A stretch of DNA of 64,000 bases. Origin: Cystobasidiopsis lactophilus. Its lineage: Eukaryota; Basidiomycota; Agaricostilbomycetes; Agaricostilbales; Chionosphaeraceae. The notes beneath the pieces were generated by a model that searched no databases, was not told the origin of the DNA, and saw only the letters and a list, made by a program, of their open reading frames with translations. A program made the translations under genes and the position numbers. Below are positions 40,801 through 47,843 of this stretch, one piece after another (positions within the stretch are counted from its first letter, which is position 1; every line of letters starts with the position of its first letter). The DNA lies in contig BCIO01000003.1 of assembly GCA_001599975.1 (NCBI GenBank), positions 2,164,677 to 2,228,676 on the forward strand. Reading direction: 5' to 3'.

Positions 40801-43578
40801 CAGTCTGGTCCGATCGCTCAGCTCGAGCTCGCCGATGCGCTGGCAGATGTTGGCGCAGCTCTGCCTCAGCGCGGGGTCGACGTCCGGCAAGAGGTGGTGG
40901 ACCTGGTACGCGGCCACAAAGGTGGTCGAAAACGTGGCGTCGATTTGGGACTGCCTGGAGGCGTAGGCCGAGAGCAGGGCGAACTCGTTGATGCAGGCCC
41001 GGGAGACGGAGGAGGCGGCGAGGAGGATGGAGTGGGCGCGCGCGTCGGCTTGGAGCTTGACCAGGCTGAGCACTTCGGCCGGCAGAGAAGCGTCCACAAA
41101 CGGTTCTGTGCGCGAGCCGAACTGAACATTTCCATCGGGAGGGAGGAAATGATAAAGGGGAAGTCTGCAACACACCTGGCTTGCTCAGCAACTTTGCATA
41201 ATCGTCCGCCCTTGCCGGGCTCAACAGCCCAGCTCCTTCTTGGAGCACGTTCTGGTTGATCTGCGCTCGAATGAAGTAGTCCAAATTCGCCGTGGGGAGC
41301 GTCAAAGGCAACTCGTCCTTCTCCCTCAGGTCGCAGAGGGCTACTAGGATCTGCCAGACCACTTCCACCTCGGCAGCGGGTAGCACACCGAACAGGGTGG
41401 TCCAAGCTTGGTTGACTTGGGGTTCCGAAGCGCGGTGGACGACGTAGCGCTGGAACAAGTTGGCGGCGGGGTGGATGAGGTCGGTTTGCTCCAATATGAA
41501 GCCGGGTACCAAGTCGACCAGCACTCTGTCGATTTCCTCCAGCGCAGAGGGGTCGAGAAAGGGGAGGGCTTTGAGCCAGTACGAGTCGAAGAAGTGCAAG
41601 CACACCGCGCGCGTTTTCATCGAGTCGGTCTGGGAGAGGAGGCCCAAGGTTTGGAGGGTCAAGTGGGAGAGGATGGCGCTGGACGCTGGGGAGGAGGGGG
41701 AGATGGTAGTTGCGAACCGAGCGAGCGAGTCGGTGGACCCATGCTCTAGATCCCCAATGCTGCTTGAGACCTGAGCCAAGACCAAGTCCATAGCTTGCGC
41801 TGCCAATCCTGTGAACCGCTTTTCAATTTCTCTACAGACAAACCTGTCTAGTGGGGGAGAGAGCTCACCAGGTTTGACAGTTTGCAACCTCCCCAAAAAC
41901 GTCACCACCACTCCGCCGTTCAACCTGACCTTCTTGTCCTCCTTCACAAACGCCTTGGCCAACCTTGGTACTTCCCCTTGCACCAACAACCGCGCGTCCT
42001 CGTCGCCCATCTTTTTCAAGCACAAAAGCAGGACTTCGGCCAGGCTCTCCAGCATCGCCCCGCTGACTGAGCCCTCCCAGTACGCGTGGAAAATAGATTG
42101 GGCGCGCGGTAAGTGCGCCAAGTCGAAGAGTGTAGAGGGCAGGGTGAGGAGGAGGAGGATGACTGCGGGAAAGTTGCGGGTAGGGTTCAAGTGGGCAGTG
42201 GTGGAGATGAAGTGCAGCAGGTCGTCGGTGACTTTTAACCGTGGTAGCATCGTTAAGTCTTCTGCTTCTGCTTCCTCAGAGGAGGAAGGGAGGGGGAGGT
42301 CAGCTAGAGTCCAAGCGTTTGGATGTCCTGTGGGTCTCTCGTCTACCTCAGCCAAAAGTCAAGTGTGGCTAAAGAAGGAGAAAACCCACGCTGTAGTAAC
42401 CCCAACAACCCATCCCACATCGCACCCTGAACGAGCGCGCTGTCCTCGTTGAAGGCGGCATGAAGCGCGCTGGGGCAGATCCACCTCAAGCCCTCGTCCT
42501 CCTGCTTGTGGGCCAGGACAGCAGAGAGGAAGGCCCAAGCTGATTTCCGAACGGCGGGCAGGCTGCTGGGTGTGTGAGGGGTGGAAGGCAGGAGGGACCA
42601 GATTAAGGTGGACGAGATGAAAGGCTTGAAGGCGTCTTCGTCTTCCGGGTCTTGGTCTGGCTCGTCGTCTTGGTCTTGCTCCTCGTTCTCTTGGTCTTGA
42701 TCAGAGGCAGTCTCCTCCGGTGTGGAAGTCGAGGCAGATGCCATTGTGGAAGAGGGAGAATGGTGGAGGTTGAAGAGGTAAGCCAAGGCGTCCAAAGCGG
42801 CGCTGACCATCCTAGCCGAGTCGGACAACGAGTCTGCCTCTTCCACATTCGCCGCCGCCGCCGTCGGGTTGGACAAAGCTGAAGTGTTAGCTTCGTCATT
42901 GCCCGACTCCGGATCGGGGGATAGGATGGCCGAGATGAAAGCCAATAAAACGGGCAACAGCATTTCCAATTCTGGTCCAGAGGTGGACCAAGAAGCCAAG
43001 GCGGACTTTCGAATGGCTCGATCGGCATCGTGCGCCAACAAAAGCCAGCTGCCCACGAACCCTTCGTTCTCCCTGTTCTCCAGCAACACACTTTTCACTT
43101 GCGGTTTGGAAACCAGGCCGGACTGAATGGAAGCTGTGGCCGCTCGGACCCGGCGGGATTGGTGGGATGCCAATTTATTGAAATGCCAAACCCAAACCGG
43201 TAACACTTGGACCACTTCTGCCTCGATTGAAGCCTCTAACCAAGCCTCCAGATCTTCCAAAGCTCGGAAGAGGGTCTTCTCATCTCGTTTGTTGAGGAGG
43301 CGAAGGACGACCAAGGTATGAGGGTCGACTGCGTCTTTCGCTAAAGAGTCGACGGGGTCTGAAGCGCCTTTGGGCTTGAAAGGAGCGACGTAGGCCTTCT
43401 TCCTTGGTTCTTGGCCTTTTTTGGGCTTCTTTTGCCCTCGTTGTCGGGCTTGACTTGGAATCGCCGAGTTGTGGCCAGGAGTGTCATCAGCAGGCTGCGA
43501 AGGGTCAAGGCCTTTCTTCTTCTCGGCTTTGCGAGCTGCTTTCTTTAAAGTGGCTTTGGAAGCGCTCGATTTGGGCAT
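37834..43578 (-). CDS. LTN1: Listerin, E3 ubiquitin ligase of ribosome quality control
   Basis: Ubiquitinates stalled nascent chains on 60S ribosomes. 1717 aa in eleven exons: 42390..43578, 41869..42342, 41176..41808, 40742..41105, 39585..40674, 38955..39524, 38753..38903, 38252..38706, 38028..38201, 37946..37959, 37834..37873. The N-terminus is basic, then long HEAT-like helices. The C-terminus has [20 protein letters not shown], an RWD-like part ([20 protein letters not shown]) and the listerin [14 protein letters not shown]...[24 protein letters not shown]...CPLC. The penultimate exon is 14 nt. Introns 42343..42389 and 41106..41175 have plausible alternative sites; the others rest on frame and conserved sequence. 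Starts of LTN1 and PET100 are 95 bp apart. Confidence 0.93.
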
Positions 43579-43673
43579 CTTCCCTGACACTATGACAGAA
43601 GAGAGTCGGGCAGAAGGTCGCTGAATGGTTCCAACGTTGCTTGTTCCGATTCAACCAACCCCCGCCCTACCCA

Positions 43674-44104
43674 ATGTCATTCTTAGGTCGCTTACTAGGA
43701 CGCTCTCGAGGCGCAGTACCAGACGCAGCTCGGTCCGCGGCGAACCCCAACTTGGAAGTGGTCAAGTTTGGGTTTTACGTGTGCTTCCCTCTCGCCATCA
43801 TGCTGTATATCCTCCCTTCCTCTTTGCCTCGGGTGTGGCTAATAGTGATGGGAATAAGGTTCTTTGGAGATCCAGAATGGTACCACCGCTATGTCCGACC
43901 TTATCGAGATGCGTTCTCCAAGCCGGGCTTAATCACCAATGTGCGTTCCTCTTCTTGTCTCGCGCGCCTTACGCTCATATATTGCGAGGTGTAAAGGTAC
44001 CGCCTAGAAGTCAGGAAGAAGCTAAGGAGAGATTGAGGGAGTATCAATTGGAGCGGGCCCAGAGGAAGCGGGCGCAGAAGGAGGAGCAGGAGAGGTTGGT
44101 TTGA
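43674..44104 (+). CDS. PET100: PET100-like cytochrome c oxidase assembly protein
   Basis: 106 aa in three exons: 43674..43804, 43859..43940, 43997..44104. The core reads NLEVVKFGFYVCFPLAIMLF then FGDPEWYHRYVRPYRDAF, the Pet100 pattern of a single inner-membrane helix followed by the (F)xxP(E/D)WY motif. The helix-motif junction is made by intron 43805..43858. A highly charged tail (EEAKERLREYQLERAQRKR...) follows and stops at TGA. Family members chaperone a COX assembly intermediate in the mitochondrial inner membrane. Immediately downstream begins an array of intron-like units whose spacers resemble this Arg/Glu-rich last exon. Confidence 0.85.
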
Positions 44105-44117
44105 AAGAGTTGCAGAG

Positions 44118-45029
44118 GTCCGTTCACGCCGTTTTACACTATCAGGATATGACTGATAACAATGACGGAAACGGACAGACTTAAAAGGTTGGGGGAAGGA
44201 AGTGGTAGCCATTAAAAGGCGGGAGGTGGACAGACGTGGCCAGGTCCGTTCCTTGACCTCACGGTATCAGACATCTCTGATTCGGGACGAATGATGTCGG
44301 ACAGACTTCAGAGCATTGGAGGAAGGGAAAGCACGAGCGAGGGACGAGCGGGCGAGGTTGGAAGGCATCTGGTCCGTTCTTTGCTTCCACACTATCAGAA
44401 CCATGCTGATATCTCAGAGGTTTGTTGGACAGACTTGGCAAGATCTTTGGTGGAGTAGAAGCGCGGCCAGAAACAGGGCCAACACCCAAGGTCGAAAAGG
44501 CGAAGAGAGGGAAGCCGAGCCAAGGTCCGTTCTGTCTCTGCTACATCATCAGACGTCGCTGATTTCGAGGGCATTGTATGCGGACAGACCTCAGAGCTCT
44601 GGAGGAAGGATTGCAGACACCGGCCAGAGGACGAGGGGCGAAGAGGGAAGGCTGAAGTTGGTGGCCTAGGTCCGTTTGTTGCCCTCACATTATCAGACAT
44701 CGCTGATTTTTTGCGACTGAATTCGGACAGACTTCAGAGCTATATAGGAGCGGAAGCACGACTACTAAGCAAACCGGAGAGGAGGGGCGAGTTCGCGGCG
44801 GCCTGGCCCGTTTGCGCCGGCTCCAATCTGATAGCCAGGTCCGGTCGTTGCCCTCACACAATCAGACGCTTGCTGATTCGTAATAGGTGCAACTGGACAG
44901 ACCTCAGACCTTTGGATGGTCGAAAGCGCAACCACGCGAGGGGCCGAAACTGGATTGATGGCTAGGTCCGTGTTGAGCGACATTTACACTATCAGACATT
45001 GCTGATCCAAAGGAGCGCTATAAGGACAG
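44118..45029 (+). repeat. Tandem array of seven intron-like units with nested hairpins
   Basis: Units: 44118..44178, 44244..44304, 44372..44432, 44525..44587, 44670..44730, 44839..44900, 44966..45029 (61, 61, 61, 63, 61, 62, 64 nt). Each begins GTCCG after AG or TG, holds ATCAG-(6 or 7 nt)-CTGAT near the centre, and ends GGACAG, usually followed by ACTTCAGAGC or ACCTCAGA. The ends pair (GTCCG with CGGAC in units 1, 2, 4 and 5; one wobble or mismatch in 3, 6 and 7) around the central hairpin. Boundaries are those of GT-AG introns and the size equals local introns. Spacers of 65, 67, 92, 82, 108 and 65 nt are less conserved, contain stops and change frame. I read the units as introner-like or as a repeated intron-exon cassette; no database match is claimed. 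Confidence 0.8.
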
Positions 45030-45830
45030 ACTTCAGAATTGAATTTGAAGCGGGGGCGTGGACGGCAAGCGATCTCCAATAAGAGAGGCACCAACCACCT
45101 GGCCTTGAACGCTCGGGTTGGAGGTGCGTTTTTGCGTCTACCTTAAAGATACGAAACAGTAGCTTTACTTCTGGTGTGAGCCGCACAGATCATCGCCAAG
45201 CAGGCGCAGGGATTACCACCACCACCCACCACTCTGCTCACCACTTTCAATTCTCTGACAAGCTTCCACCTGACCATCGGCTTTCTTGCGGGCAGAAGCA
45301 TCACAGCATCCAGCTATCACTATATCCCGCGCACCGGCCGCCTTTCACGCGCAGCCACCAGCGGAAACGACCACCTTCTGCCGCCATCGCCACTGCCAGC
45401 TCTCCGCCCTGATCAAACTCAAACCGCGCACCCCGGTATTCAGCTTGCTTTCATACTCTTTCTTATGTGATATCTCATGAAATGTTGCGCGCTGGGGAGA
45501 GCGGGTTCGGTCTGATAGGGGATTTGGCATTGCCAAACGAACGCGCTGTTCCCTCTTAAAACTCGCGCTTGTAGCTTTCCCTGTAGCACTCCAAGCACCT
45601 CGTATCACTCTTGAAAACTTGCAAAAGCATCTACCACTTTTAAAAATCGTCCGCCTCTCAGAGAGCAGATTTTCGCCACCGGCGCGTTGGGTTGCTCCTG
45701 CCCCATCCTCTCTCCTTTGGAAAGCCTCTCAAACCATTCGCATCAGCGTTGATATCTGTGAGACGCGGCGAAGATTCTCTCCCACCTAGCTCTCTCCCGC
45801 TCCCTCAAGCGCTCGCTGCAAATTTGCACC
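45030..45830. other. Intergenic, 5' flank of the DEAD-box gene
   Basis: About 800 bp with pyrimidine-rich and CA-rich tracts, probably promoter and leader of the helicase gene. No further copy of the intron-like unit and no coding exon were found. Confidence 0.5.
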
Positions 45831-47843
45831 ATGTCCGCCCCTAACCCTCCCCCAAGCTCCAACCGCGGCCAAAAGCGAAGGAGACCACCTCATGGTCCAC
45901 CTCGACCACCTCGCAAACTGGCGGCTGAGGAAGCCCCCGCTCCAGTGGGAGTGCCCGGTTTGCCTCAGGCCCCTTCGATGAGCGCTGGAAGAGGTCGAGG
46001 CCGCGGTGGTCAAGCATCGGTTCGACTGCCCAGGCCGACTTCCTTCCAGCAATCTCCTGCTGCGCAGAGGCAATTTTCATCCTTGACCTCGTCCATGCAA
46101 ACTTCCGCCGCTTCCTCCACCACCGACATCCTCCCTCCTCCCGTCGCCAGTGTGGCCGCGCCGCCGGCTGGAAGCTCGGAAGTGTTGATCAAGCATTTGT
46201 CAGGGACCACGTTCCAGTCTTTGGTCGATTCGGGCTTGTTGGATTCGAGGATCACGGTGCCTTTCCCGACTTGCACGGATGTGCAGGCTAAGACTTTGCC
46301 TATCATTCTCAAAGGTAACCCTTGCCCCTACCCTTTATTCCGCTTTTCACAGAAATTGAGTGTTGTCGGTGGCTTTGGTTACAGGTGGCGATGTGCTGGC
46401 TCAAGCGAAAACCGGCACTGGCAAGACTTTGGCCTTCCTCCTGCCCGTCATCCAAACCCTGCTCTCCAGCCCACCCGCTCGAGGTTCCATCTCCGCTTTG
46501 ATCCTCTCCCCTACCCGAGAGCTCGCCACCCAAATCGCCGACTCCGGCACCCCTCTGCTCTCCCAGCTCAAGATGCACATCCAAACCGCCACCGGAGGCA
46601 ACAACGCCAAGTCCGAGCTGAACCGAATCAAGAAGCAGCCCTGTGACATCCTTGTTGCCACACCTGGACGACTGTTGGACCACTTGGAGAATGGCGGGTT
46701 GGCGGGCATGATGGCCAACTTGAAGTTTTTGGTCCTTGATGAGGCGGATAGGTTGTTGGATGCGGGCTTCAAGAGGGAGTTGGATAAGATTGTGCAGTGG
46801 GTTTTCTCCCTTTTACCTTAGCACAAGAAATGTGCTGAAATGACTGCGCTGGCTGCAGATTCTTGCCTGACCGACAGCGAGTCAAGAGACAGTCGCTCTT
46901 GTTCAGCGCCACCATCTCGCCCGAGGTCAAGCAGGTGGCCAAGGCCACTTTGGCGCCCAACCACACCTTCGTTTCCACCTTGGCCGCGGACGAGGTCAAC
47001 ACGCACCAGCATGTGCCGCAGTTCCTGGCCACTGCTGAATTGCCCGACTTCTTCGCCGCCGTGGTCGCCATCCTCCGCCAGGAGATCCAGTCCAACCCGC
47101 TGTCCAAGATCATGCTGTTCCTCCCTACCGCACGCTCGACTGGATTGGCTTATTCCTTGTTGAACACGCTCAAGACCTCGGTCGCTGCCAACGTGTGGGA
47201 GATCCACTCTCGCATGTCTCAGAGCGCGAGGAACAAGTCGGCTGAGGCCTTCAAAGCCGCCTCCACTGGCATCCTCGTTTCTTCCGACGTCACCGCCCGA
47301 GGCATGGACTTCCCCGCTGTCACTTTGGTCCTCCAAGCTGGCCTACCCGCCAACGCCGAGCAATACGTCCATCGTCTCGGTCGAACGGCCCGAGCTGGCG
47401 CTGGAGGCCGAGGCGTCTTGCTCCTCTGCCCTTTTGAGAGCTTCTTCCGCGCCAAGCTCTCCGACTTGCCTATTCAGCCATATCAGCTCGACCAGTCTTA
47501 CTTCCTTGACCCCCAGCTCTTGCGCCGCGCCTTACTGCAGGTGCCTGACTCGGAGAAGACCCAGGCTTGGTCCGCCTTTCTCGGCTACTACAAAGGCAGC
47601 TTGAAGTCCATGCGCATGACCCCGCCCCAGCTCATCGAGCTCTGCAACGTGTTCGCCTTCCAGACCTGCCTCTATCAGGGCACCAACGTCAAGACCCCTC
47701 CGGTGCGTTTGCTTTTCGCTCTCTTTTGCCTCTCTGGACCTAAAACTTAATGAAATGGGCAGATTACCGCCAAGACAATAGGAAAGATGGGATTAAAAGA
47801 ATACCGTTCTTTGTTCAACATCGTCGCCGACGACCGCCGATAG
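45831..47843 (+). CDS. DEAD-box RNA helicase, MSS116-like (mitochondrial type)
   Basis: 606 aa in four exons: 45831..46314, 46385..46796, 46859..47702, 47763..47843. All helicase motifs are visible: AQAKTGTGKT (Walker A), SPTRELA, ATGG, TPGRLLDH, VLDEADRLLD (DEAD), SAT, FLPTARST, ARGMDFP and HRLGRTARAG. The order, the AKTGTGKT variant and the helical C-terminal extension (YYKGSLKSMRMTPPQLIELC) fit the Mss116/CYT-19 group, which remodels group I/II introns and mitochondrial RNAs. The N-terminal ~110 residues are Arg/Pro-rich and could hold an import signal. The MSS116 orthology is inferred from the C-terminal layout. Confidence 0.87.

Follow-up and report, generated by a model that had tools for sequence, protein, structure and literature searches.

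Seven tandem units downstream of a PET100-like gene probably represent self-pairing spliceosomal introns, which would be removed from a spliced non-coding 3′ tail of the PET100-like gene or from a small adjoining non-coding gene, and which would have arisen by tandem duplication. This reading draws on four computational observations, namely the anatomy of the units, their intron signature, the covariation of intron ends across the genome and the enrichment of a hairpin at the branch site. In the window, the whole stretch of 64,000 nucleotides that was analysed, the PET100-like gene occupies positions 43674..44104 of the forward strand (Pfam Pet100, E 2.5e-11 for exon 1 and 6.4e-14 for the joined protein). 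Frame reading places the borders of its exon 1 at 43674-43940 and those of its intron at 43941-43996, and exon 2 (43997-44104) ends at the stop codon TGA at 44102-44104; a search for relatives with the PET100 protein as query returned no match. The first unit begins 13 nucleotides past this stop codon, and a DEAD-box helicase gene, whose best named relatives are mostly from basidiomycete fungi, starts downstream of the array near position 45831. A listerin-like gene on the reverse strand (42343-43584; Ltn1 N-terminal domain E 4e-4, below the Pfam cut-off) is arranged divergently from the PET100-like gene. Moreover, a G+C-rich inverted repeat, GCACC..GGTGC, is located just past the array at 45088-45133, with TTTTT shortly after it.

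The original prediction described seven units of 61-64 nucleotides with the order GTCCG...ATCAG-N6/7-CTGAT...GGACAG, and all seven are present. On the forward strand, the predicted introns are unit 1 at 44118..44178 (61 nucleotides, intron score 18.6), unit 2 at 44244..44304 (61 nucleotides, 23.4), unit 3 at 44372..44432 (61 nucleotides, 22.9), unit 4 at 44525..44587 (63 nucleotides, 26.5), unit 5 at 44670..44730 (61 nucleotides, 20.4), unit 6 at 44839..44900 (62 nucleotides, 15.1), which has the weakest 5′-end, GTCCGG, and unit 7 at 44966..45029 (64 nucleotides, 23.0). In the genome searched (22.1 Mb in 8 contigs), the pattern ATCAG-N6,7-CTGAT-N10-30-GGACAGAC matches exactly these seven units, with 0 matches in the reversed controls, and a DNA search of the genome for dispersed unit copies returned only units 5 and 2. 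Looser pieces of the unit also matched elsewhere, at 5/10 and 11/18 places, which is approximately the chance level. In the unit alignment 23/66 columns are invariant, forming the blocks GTCCG, AC ahead of the hairpin, ATCAG, CTGAT and GGACAG; pairwise identity averages 52% over the left linker, 48% over the loop and 32% over the right linker. The notion that the units are more alike than the spacers is thus to be qualified: conservation is confined to blocks, the linkers having drifted, and some spacers are homologous as well. An eighth GGACAGAC at 44228-44235 in spacer 1 lacks the remainder of a unit and may either be left over from one or serve as an alternative 3′-end.

An intron model derived from the same genome lends good support to the intron-like character of the units, though weaker support in the case of unit 6. 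The codon model used the window plus 200 kb from other places as training sequence, and the array was masked in the intron search. The strict design yielded 22 introns, whereas three decoy designs yielded 5, 3 and 9, and a looser design yielded 91 coding-supported introns. The latter define the intron signature of this genome, comprising GTNNGT at the 5′ splice site, pyrimidine-rich sequence, CTGAC or CTGAT as branch site, often ACAG at the end and a median length of 60 nucleotides. These two designs replaced earlier intron finders that used a poor codon model and returned none and 11, and a third one that returned a noisy set of 77. With profiles from the 22 introns, six units rank 3, 10, 11, 13, 36 and 59 among 1684 candidates in the window, and the score of unit 6 lies below those of all 22 training introns. 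The reversed window contained fewer candidates at every cut-off tried (at 22, 2 and 2 versus 11 and 6). All seven units start with GT and end with AG, and the 5′ splice site follows GTNNGT, being GTCCGT in 6/7 units. GTCCGT also opens 5/91 introns of the looser set; when motifs were scanned without regard to coding, its use as a 5′ splice site showed no enrichment over background (6/100 versus 5.3%). The branch site CTGAT is present in 7/7 units at a distance of 22-25 nucleotides from the end, i.e. at the long edge of the training range of 11-24. The unit lengths lie inside the 5th-95th percentile of the genome's introns (47-78.5 nucleotides), and the pyrimidine fraction of the left linker is 0.65-0.76 in six units and 0.47 in unit 7, the mean of ordinary introns being 0.67. 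Taken together, these features are consistent with splicing of the array, which we predict to occur.

The six spacers (65, 67, 92, 82, 108 and 65 nucleotides, within 44179..44965 of the forward strand) are read as non-coding exons. They are purine-rich (65.6% versus 47.6% in the units) and, as originally noted, carry stops and change frame: their lengths keep no frame, and stops occur in all three spliced frames. The candidate reading of the spacers as coding exons was rejected for reasons of frame and length. In addition, the sequence right after each unit is kept, both ACYT and some bases beyond it, and the stretch after unit 7 (45030..45119, forward strand) begins with ACTTCAGA like the other spacers and aligns with spacer 5 at z 3.1. 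Spacers 2 and 4 align at z 9.8 and three other pairs at 5.6, 5.3 and 5.0, and spacer 1 shows no detectable homology to the other spacers (z at most 1.1). The homology of some spacers points to tandem duplication of an intron and spacer module. As judged from the sequence, the copies of this module probably arose side by side, and their spacers then lost similarity more quickly than the units, so that the exon parts would by now be largely decayed. Introner-type elements, one of the three options originally offered, are disfavoured both by this inferred tandem origin and by the lack of dispersed unit copies in the pattern and DNA searches, whereas a spliced, intron-rich non-coding transcript fits best of the three.

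Alternatively, the spacers could be decayed coding exons of a repetitive gene, the introns being merely left over. The resemblance of spacers 2 and 4 to the purine-rich last exon of the PET100-like gene (z 3.7 and 3.5 against mononucleotide shuffles) is in line with such an origin, as is a larger related hairpin array on contig C4 with a period of approximately 1 kb, which may be a repetitive gene. However, the remaining five spacer stretches do not resemble the PET100 exon (z −0.8 to 0.2 against mononucleotide shuffles), the frame is not kept and stops fill all three spliced frames, and decay leaves the retention of ATCAG and GG unexplained. We consider this origin very improbable. SnoRNA host genes are known to keep their introns and not their exons, and the array resembles them in that the intron parts are better kept than the exon parts. 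Unlike in these genes, no Rfam family, snoRNAs included, matched the units at its cut-off (one chance-level match, sR14, E 0.5, 15 bits versus 38 needed), which indicates that the units are not snoRNA host introns.

The prediction that the unit ends can pair was correct, and the pairing is wider than claimed, since positions +3 and +4 covary with −5 and −6 across the genome. This is apparent in the matching end pairs GTTCG..CGAACAG, GTGCG..CGCACAG, GTGAG..CTCACAG and GTCCG..CGGACAG. Whole-genome lists were compiled for the four 5′ splice sites GTTCGT, GTGAGT, GTCCGT and GTGCGT, from which duplicates, one incomplete row and sites in which two starts or two ends overlapped were left out. The samples comprised 97 sites for GTTCGT (from 100 among the matches listed, of 226), 95 for GTGAGT (from 100 among the matches listed, of 214), 44 for GTCCGT (of 53 matches) and 98 for GTGCGT (from 100 among the matches listed, of 420). 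One intron with overlapping starts, C1:4178043, was retained in two classes, and the 3′ endings were transcribed by hand. The listed sites are not all introns, as the reversed controls gave 46 (GTTCGT), 32 (GTGAGT), 19 (GTCCGT) and 14 (GTGCGT) sites. Among the matches listed, the cognate dinucleotide precedes ACAG in 38/97 GTTCGT sites versus 10/237 sites of the other classes (Fisher p 6e-15), in 16/95 GTGAGT sites versus 12/239 (p 8e-4), in 10/44 GTCCGT sites versus 13/290 (p 2e-4) and in 27/98 GTGCGT sites versus 18/236 (p 4e-6). For the 334 sites among the matches listed, +3/−5 and +4/−6 form Watson-Crick pairs in 319/668 cases versus 222 (sd 10) upon shuffling (z 9.9); the maximum in 10,000 shuffles was 259 pairs, so that none reached 319, and the swapped register gave a z of 1.5 only. 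Likewise, among the matches listed, C is found at −7 in 53/91 sites with paired −5/−6 versus 90/243 others. As every 5′ class has its own complement, a single trans-acting RNA is insufficient to account for this pattern, whereas either intra-intron pairing or descent from an inverted repeat suffices.

The independent set of coding-supported introns (n=91) shows the same tendency, with 38 Watson-Crick pairs at +4/−6 versus 24.7 with reshuffled 3′-ends (z 3.3), a weak effect at +3/−5 (31 versus 25.3, z 1.5) and no signal at +5/−7. In this set the joint pairing score exceeds that of shuffles in the helix register only (z 2.6; other offsets −1.3 to 0.5), and just one of 54 single cells off register, +3/−12, stands out with z 2.3. 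Moreover, the lowest-energy fold pairs the ends by at least 4 pairs in 32/91 introns versus 12.3 expected. Overall, ordinary introns fold only slightly better than their shuffles (mean z −0.24, SE 0.13; random 60-mers +0.20). The outer stem is hence a general tendency of the introns of this genome. Within the array, four pairs of this stem never vary, and the fifth is G-C in 4, G-U in 2 and broken in 1 of the units; a double change is seen once in each of its two outward extensions, which are broken in 3/7 and 2/7 units. Compensatory changes in the stems, as anticipated by the original prediction, are thus seen between introns genome-wide, but hardly between the seven copies.

The complementary ends could also be relics of an inverted-repeat element that was behind the gain of the introns, and would then play no part in splicing. 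Introner insertion could leave behind short, AG-flanked inverted ends like these, and related behaviour is described, in the excerpted account, for stwintrons of the Hypoxylaceae (PMC8469720), although their inverted repeats comprise 45-55 nucleotides and the ends of the array 5 bp. This origin is unlikely given that the complementarity stops before +6/−8 (z −1.1, n=91), that the introns among the matches listed are otherwise dissimilar by eye, and that +3, +4, −5 and −6 are identical in 7/7 copies of the array while the linkers drift. The four paired bases are fixed in the seven copies yet variable elsewhere, which favours selection.

The inner stem, ATCAG with CTGAT, is invariant within the array. 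ATCAG-N5-12-CTGAT-N8-26-ACAG was found at 392 genome sites versus 8 in reversed controls, which ruled out that the branch hairpin is unique to the array. The form ATCAA..TTGAT is similarly enriched (99 versus 3 reversed controls), 23 of these sites lying within 5.9 kb on contig C4. ATCAA..CTGAT, with a terminal A-C mismatch, occurred 73 times versus 4 in the controls, and opposite the C of CTGAT a G is 5.4 times as common as an A. Because the mismatched form is also enriched, the support for the last pair of the hairpin is partial. In the ordinary introns a general branch hairpin was not apparent, with a perfect one in 0/91 and 11/91 versus 8.1 expected. The branch-site hairpin is accordingly found in a minority subclass of introns. 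The dyad ATCAG..CTGAT, along with the ends CCG..CGG, would also suit double-stranded DNA sites for a dimeric protein. However, a rigid DNA dyad would not usually vary in spacing, and the two halves here are 6 nucleotides apart in four units but 7 in the other three; moreover, the genomic hairpin sites have ACAG at intron distance, which renders such a function extremely improbable.

The units could instead form an array of hairpins that stays unspliced and acts as structured RNA or binds protein, the intron signals being incidental. The two invariant stems would suit such an array, and unit 1 folds far better than its shuffles (z −3.9) and unit 6 somewhat better (z −2.1). In contrast, the other five units fold no better than shuffles (z 0.58 to −1.59), the intron signature and the lengths of the units suit the genome, and both stems occur in other introns here, one of which is confirmed by a protein alignment. 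We therefore regard an unspliced structured array as unlikely. A middle stem, indicated by several single folds and by RNAalifold, shows double changes in 3/4 pairs of the RNAalifold helix with an unfavourable overall covariation term (+0.33). It was rejected, as cognate arms fold no better than swapped ones (p 0.40), and a fold of the minus strand was dismissed on the same grounds (p 0.69).

With the units taken as spliced introns, positions +1 to +5 would pair with −7 to −3 and thereby draw both splice sites close to each other, and CTGAT, the branch site, would sit in the inner hairpin with ATCAG. The outer pairing would use +3 and +4, the most variable positions of the 5′ splice site, so that the 5′ splice site could find its complement in the intron's own 3′-end, which would help to match both ends. 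This pairing is predicted to occur in vivo and to promote splicing, but splicing signals are buried in both stems, which could hinder U1 and U2. The tail introns would be kept because their removal is required. The tail is further predicted to be part of the PET100 transcript. Exon-junction surveillance can trigger decay of messages with junctions well after the stop codon; if the tail is in the PET100 mRNA, the later introns would leave such junctions, possibly resulting in decay. Extending this to the genome, we give an even chance to the idea that an intron carries its own 5′ splice-site complement (+3/+4 versus −5/−6), with the ends evolving as self-addressed pairs, and that the subclass with the branch hairpin accumulates in arrays of non-coding tails, where selection keeps the intron and not the exon.

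Trans-acting snRNAs and proteins are the main explanation of how a 5′ splice site is matched with its 3′ partner. Base-for-base covariation of intron ends points to a cis-acting component in this matching, which is amenable to testing, and the array represents a case of fixed intron ends and a branch hairpin beside decaying exon-like stretches. In the literature searched, which was covered in part, we recognised no account of 5′ and 3′ splice sites covarying base by base. According to the excerpts of PMC5851062, Cryptococcus introns are of the GT-AG type, average 65 nucleotides, have degenerate signals and are in part located in 3′ UTRs or non-coding transcripts, and the array is alike in its small GT-AG introns; pairing of the ends and tandem intron arrays are, in contrast, not mentioned in these excerpts. 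In the zipper stems of S. cerevisiae, as described in parts of PMC12350175, a stem inside the intron likewise brings splicing signals together. These stems lie at least 10 nucleotides inside the 5′ splice site, whereas the outer stem of the array starts at +1 and the splice-site bases themselves pair. Euglenid nonconventional introns are described, in the sections consulted of PMC4770533, as having non-canonical borders that vary and being removed by an unknown mechanism, unlike the array with GT-AG in 7/7 units and a branch-site motif. Introner-like elements and Hypoxylaceae stwintrons, as far as the excerpts of PMC4457414 and PMC8469720 go, share with the array that they are multiplied fungal introns, some with complementary ends, but their copies are similar in sequence and dispersed, whereas the array is one tandem set and the introns are dissimilar.

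As for copies elsewhere, the pattern and DNA searches of the genome revealed none of the unit sequence, but the architecture recurs in other arrays. At locus L022, the joined exons of a GYP1-like gene encode 496 residues with a Rab-GAP TBC domain (E 5e-42), and the joined protein aligns to yeast Gyp1 almost to its end (E 3e-102). This alignment spans a 13-nucleotide exon (L022:2201-2213) with an intron on either side; the upstream intron contains the ATCAG..CTGAT hairpin and is flanked by coding exons. Past the stop codon of this gene (L022:2296), three units score as introns (2368-2429, 2545-2607 and 2723-2791), and further intron-like stretches are visible by eye between them in the region 2296-2870. 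Another tandem array with four exact ATCAG..CTGAT..ACAG sites is found on the reverse strand of locus L046 (C1:3680501-3681800). On C4:333271-339139, reverse strand, 22 ATCAA..TTGAT..ACAG sites and one on the opposite strand extend over 5.9 kb with a period of about 1 kb, perhaps representing a repetitive gene with many branch-hairpin introns. Finally, identical or nearly identical pairs of intron-like matches were observed at C2:556187 and C2:578643 and at C3:42720 and C3:103638, which are probably duplicated or mobile DNA.
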